Assembly (NCBI GenBank): GCA_017445225.1
Contig: JAFSUN010000007.1
Location: 1 to 64,000, forward strand
Reading direction: 5' to 3'
DNA: 64,000 nucleotides
Source of the DNA: Erysipelotrichaceae bacterium
GTDB lineage: Bacteria; Bacillota_I; Bacilli_A; Erysipelotrichales; Erysipelotrichaceae
The notes under the pieces were generated by a model. That model made no database searches, was not told the DNA's origin, and saw only the letters and a list, made by a program, of their open reading frames with translations. This document shows positions 24,199 to 28,863 of this stretch, one piece after another; positions within the stretch are counted from its first letter, which is position 1; each line of letters starts with the position of its first letter. A program made the translations under genes and the position numbers.

Positions 24199-25034
24199 AA
24201 CCCCCTTTTGCAGATGAAAACATCGTCATGGTATCTTTCGTAGGAAGCGATTACCTTTCCTTCATGGGTAATGAACACGAAGGAATAATCGGTGTCGATG
24301 CTGATGGGCTTGCCGTTCATGACGTCCGTTATATCCGTAACTTCAACGTAGGGATAATGATAGAGGACATCATAGGTATCGATCAGTTCAAATTCGCCCT
24401 TTTCGATCTGCTCTATTGAATAACTCTGAACCAGTGAATACTTATCGATCGCCGTGCGTTTCAGAGCGCTCATGATACCGATGGTTCCCAGTCTTTCAGC
24501 GATATCGGCGCACAGGGAACGGATGTAGGTCCCGCTGCTGCAGGCAACATCAAAGGTGATACGGCTGCCTTCATGACTTTCCATCTGAATGTCATGGATG
24601 GTTACTTCTACCGGTTCCCTTTCGATCTCCACGTTCTTTCGGGCCAGTTCATACAGTTTCTTACCGTTGATCTTCTTGGCGCTGTACATCGGGGGTAACT
24701 GCAGATAGGTTCCCCGGAAGCTGTTCAGTACTTCACTGATCTGTTGATCTGAATAAGCCGGTACTTCCCTTTCTTCCAGAACGGTTCCTTCCGCATCGAG
24801 GGTATCCGTCTTAATTCCAAGAGTCAGCTCTGCATGATACTTCTTGTCGTGAATGCTGATGTACGGCAGGATCTTGGTAGCCTTACCAATCGTCAGCATC
24901 ATCAGTCCCTCGGCCATCGGATCCAGGGTACCGGTATGACCGATCTTCTGGATCTTCAGAATGCCTCTTACCTTCTGAACGAGATCGTGGCTGGTATACC
25001 CCTTTGGCTTGTTTACCAGAATGATTCCGTCCAT
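24192..25034 (-). CDS. truB: tRNA pseudouridine-55 synthase
   Basis: A 280-residue TruB. MDGIILVNKPKGYTSHD opens the protein, and GHTGTLDPMAEGLM holds the catalytic Asp. LQLPPMYSAKKINGKKLYELAR and CSSGTYIRSLCADI are further family motifs. It modifies U55 in the T arm of tRNAs. Its start shares one base with the metI stop (TAATG), so it is translationally coupled to the methionine transporter instead of the usual rbfA/infB context. Confidence 0.95.
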   Translation of the reverse strand: MDGIILVNKPKGYTSHDLVQKVRGILKIQKIGHTGTLDPMAEGLMMLTIGKATKILPYISIHDKKYHAELTLGIKTDTLDAEGTVLEEREVPAYSDQQISEVLNSFRGTYLQLPPMYSAKKINGKKLYELARKNVEIEREPVEVTIHDIQMESHEGSRITFDVACSSGTYIRSLCADIAERLGTIGIMSALKRTAIDKYSLVQSYSIEQIEKGEFELIDTYDVLYHYPYVEVTDITDVMNGKPISIDTDYSFVFITHEGKVIASYERYHDDVFICKRGLW

Positions 25035-25738
25035 TAAAGGTTACCTTTCAGCCGCTTGTCGGACTTGATCGCCAGGCGGGTTCCTACGGTCTGAATCACC
25101 TGAACCAGGATGACCAGCAGGATGACGGCATAGATCATGATCGAATAGATGTAGCGGTTATAGCCATAGCTGATGGCGACCTTTCCCAGACCGCCGCCGC
25201 CTAAGGCACCGGCCATGGCCGTATAGGAAAGAACGTTGGTCAGCGTGATGGTAATGTTGGAAATCAGTGACGGTACACTTTCCGGGATCAGAACCTTGGT
25301 AATGATCTGGAATGGCGTAGCGCCCATGCTTCTGGCCATTTCAATGGAATTGACATCCACTTCTCTTAAGGATCCTTCGGTAACACGGGCTACGTATGGG
25401 AAGGAAGCAATGACCAGCGGGACCATGGCGGCCACGGTTCCGACGACGGTGCCGACGATCAGACGGGTAAGCGGCATGACGACGACCATCAGAATCAGAA
25501 ACGGTACTGACCTTAAGAGGTTGATGATCACATTGAGGATCTTCATCAGCCAGGAAGGCAGCGGCATGATTCCGTCCTTGTCACCGACCACCAGGATTAC
25601 ACCCAGCGGAATGCCGATCAGCAAGGCAAAGAAAGTGGAAATGAAAGTCGCGTAAATCGTCTCCCAGATGGCAGACGGGAAGGTTGCGGTTATGATCTCC
25701 CAGTTCTTGGGATCAAACATGAATAAGGTTTTAGTCAT
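25034..25738 (-). CDS. metI: Methionine ABC transporter permease
   Basis: The membrane subunit of a MetNIQ importer, 234 residues with five to six membrane segments and the EAA loop (REVDVNSIEMARSMGATPFQIITKVLIPES). The start at 25738 (MTKTLFMFDPKNW) overlaps the metN stop by 8 nt in ATGACTAA; the longer upstream frame lies inside metN. It is followed directly by truB. Confidence 0.93.
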   Translation of the reverse strand: MTKTLFMFDPKNWEIITATFPSAIWETIYATFISTFFALLIGIPLGVILVVGDKDGIMPLPSWLMKILNVIINLLRSVPFLILMVVVMPLTRLIVGTVVGTVAAMVPLVIASFPYVARVTEGSLREVDVNSIEMARSMGATPFQIITKVLIPESVPSLISNITITLTNVLSYTAMAGALGGGGLGKVAISYGYNRYIYSIMIYAVILLVILVQVIQTVGTRLAIKSDKRLKGNL

Positions 25739-26744
25739 CAAGGAATACCTCCTCGGCATAGACATCAGGCATCTGCATGAAGTAGCTGATGGTCTCAGCT
25801 ATGATGTTGCTGTCGCGCTTGATGCCCAGCAGCATGTATCCGTATACCTTGTCATCAACACTCTTGGTTGAGGCATAGGTGATGTTGGCTTCGATCCCCT
25901 TCTCCAGCGCCAGCCGGGCGATCATCGGGGTATTGGTAGCCTTGGCACCATTGAATACCAGACGGATGATGTGTTCATCCGGTTCGCTCTTTCTGAGGTT
26001 GTCAGCTGAGCCTTCCGGGAAGACCAGCCGCTTGGTAGCTTCGCTCTTGGGATGGGAGAAGACTTCTCCTACCGGTCCCTTTTCAGCGACGACACCGTTA
26101 TCCAGGATCGCCACATGACGACAGATCGATTCAACGACGTTCATCTGGTGAGTAATGACGATGACGGTGATGTTCAGCTTCTGATTGATCTCCCTGATCA
26201 GTTCCAGGATCTGGTTGGTCGTGGTCGGATCGAGAGCACTGGTAGCTTCATCGCATAACAGCAGTTTGGGATCGTTGGCGAGAGCTCTGGCAATGGCTAC
26301 CCTCTGCTTCTGACCGCCGGAAAGCTGACTGGGATAACTGTAGGCCTTATCTTTCAGACCGACCAGTTCCAGTAACTTGATGGCCTTTTTTTCCGCTTCA
26401 ACGCGGTTGATGCCGGCCAGTTCCATCGGGAAGCAGACGTTCTTCAGACAGTTTCGCTGCATCAGCAGATTGAAGCCCTGGAAGATCATGGCGATCTCCT
26501 TGCGCTTCTCTCTTAACTGCTTTTCCGATAACAGGCTCATGTCCACACCGTCAATGCAGACGGTCCCTTCACTGGGCTTTTCCAGCATGTTTATGCATCT
26601 GACCAGCGTGCTCTTTCCCGCTCCCGAAACACCGATGATGCCGTAGACATCGCCATCGGCAATATTCAGGGATACATCCTTGAGAGCGTAGATGTCGCCG
26701 CCTTCGGTCCGGAATTTCTTACTGATATTCTTAATCTCGATCAT
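25731..26744 (-). CDS. metN: Methionine ABC transporter ATP-binding protein
   Basis: A 337-residue ATPase of the methionine importer. Walker A GVSGAGKST, the signature LSGGQKQRVAIARAL and Walker B LLLCDEATSALD are in the first 230 residues. The C-terminal NIL (ACT-like) domain, about residues 260-337 (HIIRLVFNGAKATNTPMIA), binds methionine and inhibits transport when the cell is replete. The ATG at 26744 has GGAGGA 7 nt upstream. Confidence 0.94.
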   Translation of the reverse strand: MIEIKNISKKFRTEGGDIYALKDVSLNIADGDVYGIIGVSGAGKSTLVRCINMLEKPSEGTVCIDGVDMSLLSEKQLREKRKEIAMIFQGFNLLMQRNCLKNVCFPMELAGINRVEAEKKAIKLLELVGLKDKAYSYPSQLSGGQKQRVAIARALANDPKLLLCDEATSALDPTTTNQILELIREINQKLNITVIVITHQMNVVESICRHVAILDNGVVAEKGPVGEVFSHPKSEATKRLVFPEGSADNLRKSEPDEHIIRLVFNGAKATNTPMIARLALEKGIEANITYASTKSVDDKVYGYMLLGIKRDSNIIAETISYFMQMPDVYAEEVFLDD

Positions 26745-26756
26745 AGACGATCCTCC

Positions 26757-26793
26757 AGAAAACAAGTATCCTGACATTTACACATCAGGATAC
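26757..26793 (-). promoter_or_regulatory. Intercistronic hairpin between metQ and metN
   Basis: On the minus strand GTATCCTGA (26793-26785) pairs with TCAGGATAC (26774-26766) around a 10-nt loop, followed by TTGTTTTC. It looks like a weak terminator or an mRNA 3'-end stabiliser that would keep the binding protein in excess over the other subunits. The effect is inferred. Confidence 0.6.
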
Positions 26794-26819: not shown

Positions 26820-27671
26820 TTACTTCTTAATGTCATCCAGGCTGTGCAGTTTGCCGCCGTAGATTCCGAACGGTTCAACATGGATCGGAGCCACCGTTAC
26901 GACATGCGTTCCGTTCTGCTTGTTGAAGTCATCGAGATATGGCTGATGCTGGAAGTAGTTGGCATCGATCTCACCGCTGTCTACTACCTTGTTAGGCTGG
27001 ACATAGTCATCAAATTCCTTAATTACCAGGGTGATTCCCTTGCTTTCAAGAGTCTTCTTGGCAATGGCCAGGATCTCGGCATGCGGAGTCGGGGAAGCGG
27101 CAACGCTGATGCTCTGACCGTTCAGGGCTGCATAGTCGATTGAAGGATCAAAGCCGTCACCGGGATTTTCAACAACGCTGACGACGGCACCGCCCCACTT
27201 GTTGGCGATGAAATCAGCAACTTCCTTGCTTTCCAGAGCAGCTTTCAGAGCCTTGACGATCGGTTCATTCTGACGGCCTTCCTTTACACAGAGAATGTTG
27301 GCATAAGGTGAAGATGAACCCTCAAATCCCAGAGCATCCTTAACCGGATTCAGTCCGGCAGCCAGGGCATAGTTGGAGTTGATGATGGCGAAGTCAACGT
27401 CCTTCAGCAGGTTCGGCAGCTGAGCAGCTTCGGCTTCTTCAAACTTGATGTTGTAGGGATTCTCGGCGATGTCGAGAATGGTGGCGGTGATGGTGGCACC
27501 GGCCTTTAACTTGATCAGGCCCTTGCTTTCCAGTAACAGCAGAGCTCTGGCTTCGTTGGTCGTATCATTGGGAACGGCGATGGTATAGGTTTTAGTTTCA
27601 TTTTTCTTGCAGCCGAATAAGGCGATCAGAACTAACAGTGATATTAATAAGGTCTTTGTAATCTTTTTCAT
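26820..27671 (-). CDS. metQ: Methionine-binding lipoprotein
   Basis: A 283-residue NlpA/MetQ-type substrate-binding lipoprotein. The signal peptide ends in the lipobox LFGC (Cys21). TYTIAVPNDTTNEARALLLLE and the later DYVQPNKVVDSGEIDANYFQHQPYLDDF are typical of MetQ. It is the first structural gene of the operon, preceded by GAGGAG and, 150 nt further up, by the attenuator terminator. Confidence 0.94.
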   Translation of the reverse strand: MKKITKTLLISLLVLIALFGCKKNETKTYTIAVPNDTTNEARALLLLESKGLIKLKAGATITATILDIAENPYNIKFEEAEAAQLPNLLKDVDFAIINSNYALAAGLNPVKDALGFEGSSSPYANILCVKEGRQNEPIVKALKAALESKEVADFIANKWGGAVVSVVENPGDGFDPSIDYAALNGQSISVAASPTPHAEILAIAKKTLESKGITLVIKEFDDYVQPNKVVDSGEIDANYFQHQPYLDDFNKQNGTHVVTVAPIHVEPFGIYGGKLHSLDDIKK

Positions 27672-27818
27672 TTTTCTTCTCCTCTAAATATTTTAAATTA
27701 CATTTCAAAAAACTGATAAACGTTACAGATCATAAGTCAATCACTGTACATTCGCATCGAATCATAATTTGAAACGATAAGCAGACTGAGATAATTCATA
27801 AACCAACTCACCTTTCCG
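27672..27818 (-). other. Spacer between attenuator terminator and metQ
   Basis: About 147 nt of leader transcript. I see no further riboswitch or strong hairpin in it. GAGGAG lies 7 nt before the metQ ATG. Confidence 0.5.
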
Positions 27819-27848
27819 AAAAAAACCAGGAGTCCGATGCTCCTGGTT
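27819..27848 (-). terminator. Attenuator terminator of the met operon
   Basis: On the minus strand AACCAGGAG (27848-27840) pairs with CTCCTGGTT (27832-27824), 9 bp. The 7-nt loop CATCGGA (27839-27833) is followed by five further T residues. It lies 147 nt before metQ and downstream of the leader peptide, so it can only act as a regulated attenuator or a silent block. The loop and the 3' part of the left arm are complementary to the region around the leader-peptide stop codon. Confidence 0.92.
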
Positions 27849-27885
27849 ACCAACAAACAATTACTAACTGAGAAGTTACATCGGA
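27833..27885 (-). promoter_or_regulatory. Antiterminator pairing of the met attenuator
   Basis: UCCGAUG (27885-27879) can pair with CAUCGGA (27839-27833), CUUCU (27875-27871) with AGGAG (27844-27840), and GUUA (27868-27865) with UAAC (27849-27846). Only the leader stop codon UAA and small internal loops stay unpaired. This 16-bp structure removes the left arm of the terminator. A competing pairing, AGAAGUUACA (27959-27950) with UGUAACUUCU (27880-27871), would release the terminator. Confidence 0.8.
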
Positions 27886-27965
27886 TATACAACATTAAAG
27901 GAAGCACACATGTCCATGCCCATCATCTGCATATCCATCATCATAACTGTGTAACTTCTTTTCAT
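27876..27965 (-). CDS. Methionine-rich leader peptide (29 residues)
   Basis: A short gene with 10 methionines in 29 residues, nine of them not the start. It opens MKRSYTV, has Met at 8, 9, 10, 12, 14, 15, 17 and 19, and ends VVYPM before TAA (27878-27876). GAAAGGA (27983-27977) lies 11 nt upstream of the ATG, a slightly long but usable spacing. The promoter is immediately upstream and the attenuator terminator 28 nt downstream. Ribosome stalling at the Met codons when charged tRNA-Met is scarce would free the antiterminator. Translation and stalling are inferred. Confidence 0.85.
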   Translation of the reverse strand: MKRSYTVMMMDMQMMGMDMCASFNVVYPM

Positions 27966-27991
27966 TCTGATGTAAATCCTTTCACACTCTC

Positions 27992-28020
27992 ATTCTATAT
28001 TTTCAGTAAAGTGTTGTCAA
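27992..28020 (-). promoter_or_regulatory. Promoter of the met leader/operon
   Basis: On the minus strand a consensus TTGACA (28020-28015) is separated by 17 bp from TAGAAT (27997-27992). Transcription would begin near 27985, 20 nt before the leader-peptide ATG. The -35 starts one base after the nfo stop codon. Confidence 0.88.
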
Positions 28021-28863
28021 TCACAAATTTAACAGCTTTTCGATTTCTTCCCGGTAAGGAGCCTGTCCTCCCACATAGGGAGTTTCCAGGATCTGCGGGA
28101 TGTTGTCGAGCAGCGGATGGTGGACGATCTTCCGAAGCGTCTCCAGACCGATGGTCCCCTCGCCGATGTTGGCATGGCGGTCCTTATGGGCACCGATGGG
28201 ATTCTTGGAGTCATTGATGTGCATGACCTTCAGATAATCCAGACCGATGACCCTGTTGAAATCTGCCAGTACGGCATCAAAGTCGGTGAGATCATAGCCG
28301 GCATCATTGACATGACAGGTATCCAGGCAGACACCGATCAGATTTTTTTTCTCGACACGGTCGATCATGAAGCGGATCTGTTCAAAGGTCCTGCCTACTT
28401 CACTGCCCTTCCCGGCCATGGTCTCCAGACAGATGATGATGTCATCTTCATCCTTCAGTACTTCATTAAGGCCATCCGTGACCTGCTTCATCGATTCCTC
28501 AATATCTCCGGTCAGGGAACTTCCGGGGTGTAAGACCATGTAACGGGCACCGATGTGGCGGGTTCTGAGGATCTCTTTCTTGAGAACCTCTTTCCCCATT
28601 TCGTAGGTTTCCGGTTTCAGCGTATTGGCCAGGTTGATGATGTAGGGACAGTGAATGACGATGTCCTTGAGATCATAGCCGTTTCTCTGCCACAATTCAT
28701 CTCCTTCGGTCACCTTGAGTTTTTCCAGCGGGGCCCGAAAGGAATTCTGGGGCGCACCGGTGTAGATCATGAAGGTATTGGCCTTATATGAAAGAGCCTC
28801 CTTAACGCTGCCCAGAACGTATTCGGGAGCGTTCATTGAAACATGTGATCCCAGTTTAATCAT
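28021..28863 (-). CDS. nfo: Endonuclease IV (AP endonuclease)
   Basis: A 280-residue TIM-barrel AP endonuclease of the Nfo family for base excision repair. The zinc ligands lie in YMVLHPGS, CLETMAGKGSEVG, CLDTCHVNDAGYD and HINDSKNPIGAHKDRH. Length and motifs are normal. It overlaps the end of the upstream DEAD-box helicase gene by 8 nt. No terminator separates it from the met leader, so read-through into that leader is possible. Confidence 0.95.
   Translation of the reverse strand: MIKLGSHVSMNAPEYVLGSVKEALSYKANTFMIYTGAPQNSFRAPLEKLKVTEGDELWQRNGYDLKDIVIHCPYIINLANTLKPETYEMGKEVLKKEILRTRHIGARYMVLHPGSSLTGDIEESMKQVTDGLNEVLKDEDDIIICLETMAGKGSEVGRTFEQIRFMIDRVEKKNLIGVCLDTCHVNDAGYDLTDFDAVLADFNRVIGLDYLKVMHINDSKNPIGAHKDRHANIGEGTIGLETLRKIVHHPLLDNIPQILETPYVGGQAPYREEIEKLLNL

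Follow-up and report, generated by a model that had tools for sequence, protein, structure and literature searches.

The methionine transporter genes metQ, metN and metI of an Erysipelotrichaceae bacterium lie behind a very short, methionine-rich reading frame and an intrinsic terminator, which raises the question of whether translation of that frame decides if the operon is transcribed. The locus was examined in a window of 64,000 nucleotides (the whole stretch of DNA analysed). A sequence-only reading had proposed an attenuator with three competing pairings, 1:2, 2:3 and 3:4, and its coordinates, promoter, 29-codon ORF with 10 Met codons, pairings and terminator all proved correct on the minus strand. 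On this strand the leader elements run in the order promoter, Met-rich ORF, terminator, second short ORF, metQ, metN and metI, with the parts located as follows.

28021 to 28863, minus strand: upstream gene of the AP endonuclease family (nfo-like), which marks the locus that this genome shares with its congeners G099 and G072
27992 to 28020, minus strand: sigma-70-type promoter TTGACA-17-TAGAAT, matching the consensus at 11 of 12 positions
27977 to 27983, minus strand: Shine-Dalgarno-like GAAAGGA of the leader ORF, read from the sequence
27876 to 27965, minus strand: leader ORF MKRSYTVMMMDMQMMGMDMCASFNVVYPM with its stop codon, 29 codons, 10 of them Met
27909 to 27944, minus strand: regulatory stretch: 8 Met codons among codons 8-19, unchanged in comparisons of relatives
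27950 to 27959, minus strand: segment 1, AGAAGTTACA, pairing with TGTAACTTCT at 27880-27871 in both the MFE and the centroid fold
27865 to 27885, minus strand: segment 2, 5' side of the putative antiterminator, containing Met29 and the stop codon
27833 to 27849, minus strand: segment 3, 3' side of the putative antiterminator, made up of the 5' arm and loop of the terminator
27819 to 27848, minus strand: intrinsic terminator (3:4), 9-bp stem and T7, dG -13.3
27737 to 27799, minus strand: second short ORF MNYLSLLIVSNYDSMRMYSD with its stop codon, holding a conserved Arg-Met coded CGA-ATG
26820 to 27671, minus strand: metQ, methionine-binding lipoprotein, circularly permuted (PF03180 in two stretches)
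25731 to 26777, minus strand: metN, ATPase with a C-terminal NIL domain (PF00005, PF09383)
25034 to 25765, minus strand: metI, permease (PF00528)

The promoter follows the upstream gene's stop codon without a gap. The terminator stem spans 27848-27824, its T run continues to 27819, and it is the sole terminator of the region (one found, 0.3 expected). Judged from the sequence, a likely Shine-Dalgarno site and a short ORF are situated near the transcript start, and an intrinsic terminator separates this ORF from the operon, as in an attenuator. The MetQ of the window matches NlpA lipoproteins, and the NIL domain of MetN is typical of methionine importers. The N-terminal half of this MetQ corresponds to the C-terminal half of ordinary MetQ and vice versa (residues 29-165 of the protein match PF03180 98-234). 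The permuted order recurs in full-length matches from genus g26, Lachnospiraceae, Oscillospiraceae, Gemmiger, Treponema and Slackia, and a literature search on permuted MetQ found no paper.

Within the window, the 2:3 pairing consists of three blocks, TCCGATG (27885-27879) with CATCGGA (27839-27833), CTTCT (27875-27871) with AGGAG (27844-27840), and GTTA (27868-27865) with TAAC (27849-27846), and this duplex has a z of about -3. The 10-bp helix of 1:2 is equalled in 13% of shuffled segments, and an energy test of 1:2 confined to the window gave no significance. Pairings found in a single sequence are weak evidence, and it is the comparison with relatives that decides.

The combination of Met-rich ORF and terminator stands directly before metQ in 11 further genomes, drawn from three genera of the family. 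Full-length close MetQ matches within the family come from seven species of genus g26 and from G195, and all seven g26 species have the Met-rich ORF and the terminator before metQ (e.g., MIRHSVMMMAMAMDMRMRVSFDHD and MKHLYSAAMMMDMMMNMGMRMSFKCD; the leader of G124 is divided by a contig break). A sequence model built from these leaders was applied to 316 genomes of the order, and every match with E < 1e-12 precedes metQ. Congeners of the window genome have matches directly before metQ (MKRNSTAMMMEMMAMRMMMRVSFDGK in G099 and G152, MKKNNTAMMMNMMAMYMMMCTSFELKNPM in G072), and a weak match occupies the same place in G015, of the third genus (MKRTGRMMDMMMCMMMADTTVRFTVSWK). When the class was sampled, the model also picked out G445 and G621, both from a different family, with MNKYSLKSVRMMDMMMHMMMCSFSVVHK and MASFSVNKMMVMMMMCMMMNRAFSIS before metN-metI-metQ; at these two loci (L190 and L191), the leader is confined to the two genomes of that genus having this metN. 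Of the weak matches in Bacilli, the best-scoring were read singly; apart from G015, G445 and G621, those read were rejected because each falls within a gene, runs antisense to a His-rich stretch or has no Met gene following it. The NCBIfam models gave no match for the small peptides. AGGAG-like sites are found at a comparable distance before the leader ORFs of relatives, and each relative tested has a counterpart of the window's proposed terminator behind its Met-rich ORF.

Conservation is concentrated in the ORF and its Met codons and is slight outside the coding stretch. In six pairwise leader comparisons, one sequence entering two of them, changes were found at none of 138 Met-codon sites and at 63 of 399 other ORF sites (P = 2e-9). 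The Met codons, the invariant part of the ORF, thus appear to be under selection. This distribution bears on the idea that a ligand-binding RNA, a SAM or methionine riboswitch of a new type, controls the terminator and that the ORF is irrelevant. Such an RNA would account for a terminator with alternative pairings and a whole-leader fold of z -1.6 in the window; however, no Rfam family matches and conservation resides in the ORF and its Met codons with little elsewhere, so that this idea is highly improbable.

The same invariance weighs on a second alternative, in which the leader senses a general slowdown of translation, a drug or a nascent peptide, the Met richness being incidental or serving the nascent peptide. 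Leaders of the bmrB or erm kind exist in Bacillota (PMC4191407), and peptides from two families have a recurring residue pattern, often Ser-Phe, behind the Met run. Sensing of a drug or slowdown is nevertheless quite unlikely given Met codons that are both numerous and invariant, a Met transporter behind them, and an AUG T-box at this place in sister species.

The pairings were then compared among ten leaders. When 2:3 partners were swapped between species, only 2 of 20000 permutations paired as well as each leader with its own partners, and against shuffles the Stouffer z of 2:3 is -8.6. As a stricter null, 69 long frames of ordinary genes were taken, each with a terminator-like hairpin a short way beyond its end: the mean z of 2:3 is -2.8 in the leaders and 0.0 at these gene ends (sd 0.9, n = 69; P = 5e-7), and although related leaders are not independent in this comparison, one leader per lineage gives the same picture. 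Examples of the paired sequences are UCCGAUG/CAUCGGA in the window, GAUAUGUUCUC/GGGAACAUAUC in G141, GUCUGAUAAUC/GGUUAUUGGAC in G074 and CACAGACUAUUC/GAAUGGUUUGUG in the distant G621. The energy of 2:3 is weaker when segment 3 is ended at the loop than when it is extended. The predicted 2:3 antiterminator is maintained by covariation, at or beside the stop codon.

For 1:2, own partners also surpass swapped ones group-wide (0 of 20000 as good). Its 5' side lies in codons 3-6 in the window, in the Shine-Dalgarno region in G099 and G072 and in both in G141 and G154, ranging across leaders from codons 2-6 to the Shine-Dalgarno region. Because the 5' side shifts, what relatives retain of the 1:2 helix first drawn for the window is its kind and not its position.

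A functional micropeptide, for example a metal-binding one, or a chance ATG repeat could also produce a Met-rich frame. Met-rich peptides are able to bind Cu(I) or Ag(I), and weak model matches elsewhere are often antisense to His-rich runs. Neither would explain the place of the frame between the promoter and terminator of metQNI, the covarying antiterminator or the T-box found instead in sister species, and such an origin has a very low probability.

The effect of ribosome position was modelled by masking the ribosome footprint on a nascent transcript ending in segment 3 and computing the expected 2:3 pairs; the parts, their conservation, their covariation and the ribosome positions that permit 2:3 are thus computed results. 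For most Met codons, a ribosome placed there lets 2:3 form in the model; placed at the stop codon, it diminishes or abolishes the duplex. The window has 17-19 expected pairs with the ribosome at codons 8-19 and 6 with it at the stop. Comparable values for Met codons and stop are about 15 vs. 0.3 in G099 and 11-15 vs. 0.1 in G154, with a weaker contrast in G074 (18 vs. 9) and G165 (8-16 vs. 9); in G141, G101 and G015, less 2:3 is modelled with the ribosome at some Met codons. The predicted antiterminator excludes the terminator and, in the model, a ribosome at the stop codon, less strictly so in G074 and G165. In ribosome-free equilibrium folds at full length, 1:2 and the terminator are favored in 10 of 10 leaders, whereas the ribosome-free nascent transcript still forms 2:3 in several leaders, the window included. 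The earlier suggestion that lack of translation leads to termination may hold: it fits the equilibrium folds of the full leader, but the nascent transcript of the window can still form 2:3.

Taken together, the leader is very probably a ribosome-mediated, Met-tRNA-responsive transcription attenuator of metQNI, to which we assign a probability of roughly 0.85. The attenuator proposed from the window thus gains a Met-rich frame conserved in relatives, a terminator and a covarying antiterminator, and T-box (RF00230) and S-box (RF00162) have no match within the window. The leader would sense the supply of charged elongator Met-tRNA. With ample Met-tRNA, the ribosome would reach the stop codon inside segment 2 and keep 2:3 from forming; the terminator 3:4 would then form and transcription would end before metQ. 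When Met-tRNA is scarce, the ribosome would wait at one of the eight Met codons 8-19 and cover segment 1, leaving segment 2 free to pair with segment 3 before segment 4 is made, and with 2:3 formed the polymerase would continue into metQNI. In this account, we infer that ribosomes stall at Met codons, that the leader responds to methionine and that termination takes place in the cell. Since a Met codon also starts translation, the sensor must work while initiation itself is short of substrate. A methionine shortage that slows initiation as well should blur the signal, which counts against the attenuator reading.

The leader is not the only sensor found before metQ in this family. The leader-less congeners G023, G122 and G171 have a T-box there, likewise several other family members. 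According to model alignments, the specifier codon is AUG in G023, G122, G171 and L009, in the context GAAC-AUG-G or GAAG-AUG-G where the T-box model has GAAa-uuc-a. With AUG specifiers, T-box and leader would both read Met-tRNA charging. A T-box in relatives had been named as evidence against the attenuator; an AUG T-box does occur in some congeners, but other congeners and the sister genus share the leader, which indicates a lineage switch and not a refutation. Within one genus, one of the two has thus taken over from the other at the metQ transporter. Roughly a dozen T-boxes are present elsewhere in leader genomes; the window genome, whose assembly is about 75% complete, has about 12.

Sensor and operon were exchanged as well. 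The window and G099/G072 share a chromosomal position, with an nfo-like gene 69-77% identical followed by the leader. Behind the leader, the window has a g26-like permuted metQNI (MetQ 63-69% and MetN about 60% identical to g26), whereas its congeners G099 and G072 have a canonical metQNI (MetN 42-44% identical). As the congeners keep the leader at the shared position before another type of metQNI, leader and operon were exchanged independently, and the leader either outlived the operon behind it or was gained separately. The permuted operon of G195 has a T-box, and each transporter type was found with each sensor, four combinations in all. A tie of the leader to the permuted MetQ type only was considered and ruled out by the canonical metQ behind the leader in G099, G072 and G015; it is also contradicted by L009, where a permuted metQ has a T-box.

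Beyond the family, public genomes were surveyed through their 80 closest MetQ relatives, most of them clostridial; enough upstream DNA was present in 76. The count covered short sense ORFs that lie within 800 bases before metQ and have 5 or more Met within 14 codons, and chance rates were taken from the flanks of the examined metQ loci. Such an ORF precedes metQ in 20 of 76 cases; the rate is lower in stretches lying further upstream (5 of 142) and on the opposite strand (3 of 76). Examples are MTRTMTIMDMMMRRCMMMCRSLPVPVSE (L193), MIAITREMMMMGMCMRRMDSFLTHVSDTFSE (L198), MKKTFTAMMNMSMCMYNCMCMLCCAVFPVRSRRFELC (L199) and MPSMYRRDAMMMCMYSMPRQPVLASLCAFSGV (Gemmiger, L251). The distant leaders examined have a strong hairpin and a T run behind the ORF; the antiterminator is clear in L193 and L198, and a clear 2:3 was looked for in Gemmiger-type leaders and not found. 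With sequences this short, the distant leaders may be homologous to that of the window or may have arisen separately.

Met and Cys codons occur together in many clostridial leaders (L199, L217, L223, L251; e.g., MMNMSMCMYNCMCMLCC in L199). Second short ORFs between terminator and metQ that carry Arg-Met(-Cys) at or near their end are present in genera g1 and g26 as well as many Clostridia, the Arg-Met always being coded CGA-ATG (MNLRFVFLLRENYRNGRMCLR; MERGPVYKQPGVRM with its stop codon), and CGAATG upstream of metQ is several-fold above expectation. Several second ORFs hold Cys-Cys or Met-Cys, and those of L204 and L220 have CGA-TGT-TGC (Arg-Cys-Cys). The mixture of Met and Cys and the Arg-Cys-Cys second ORFs hint at a joint sulfur amino acid signal. 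Methionine and cysteine could accordingly be read together by the leader, for which the mixed clostridial leaders and the second ORFs with Cys-Cys or Met-Cys speak; for the window this is unlikely, its leader ORF having one Cys codon against 10 Met codons and the leaders of G141 and G099 having none. It is conceivable, though doubtful, that a widespread and so far undescribed family of Met and Met/Cys leader attenuators acts on metQNI across Bacilli and Clostridia, exchanging freely with Met T-boxes and with non-orthologous operons and forming a two-step sulfur amino acid switch with a second micro-ORF of invariant CGA-AUG.

The S-box (SAM-I) riboswitch is the common Met control element in Bacillota. 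It differs from the leader in sensing SAM, and no match to it (RF00162) was found in the window genome, in an assembly about 75% complete. The Met T-box, which in the met operon of L. lactis controls termination before a Met ABC transporter (PMC7058034), resembles the leader in sensing Met-tRNA charging and stands before metQ in G023, G122, G171 and L009; unlike the leader, it binds uncharged tRNA directly, requires no ORF or ribosome and is absent from the window. The trp, his, leu, thr, ilv and phe attenuators share with the leader the runs of regulatory codons in a short ORF, an antiterminator overlapping or following the ORF end, a terminator before the operon and the presumed logic, while the window leader differs in its Met codons and its transporter operon. 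By its sequence, the leader has the tested defining features of the trp/his class; for the protector hairpin, partner swaps speak for it across the group, and in the window alone it is not significant. In a survey of RNA regulons, attenuator specificities comprise His, Leu, Thr, Trp, Ile/Val and Phe, and Met is absent (PMC3766115). The open-licence literature was searched for a leader peptide that reads methionine, and nothing relevant came up; an older subscription-only paper could exist. Methionine is missing among the amino acids that leader-peptide attenuation is known to sense.

Leader attenuation had initially been described as well known in Proteobacteria. In Bacillota, His leaders (hisS, his operon) are on record and are predicted also in Erysipelotrichales (PMC2965389, PMC9413887), and a Leu leader of the ilv-leu operon is on record in S. 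aureus (PMC5794164). With these His and Leu precedents, known or predicted, in the phylum, the novelty lies in the Met specificity alone. These leaders agree with that of the window in mechanism class and phylum, and exchange of T-box and leader has been noted before; the window case differs in the amino acid and in showing the exchange within one genus for one transporter. With two unrelated sensors of Met-tRNA charging before one transporter in one genus, sensor exchange becomes directly testable.
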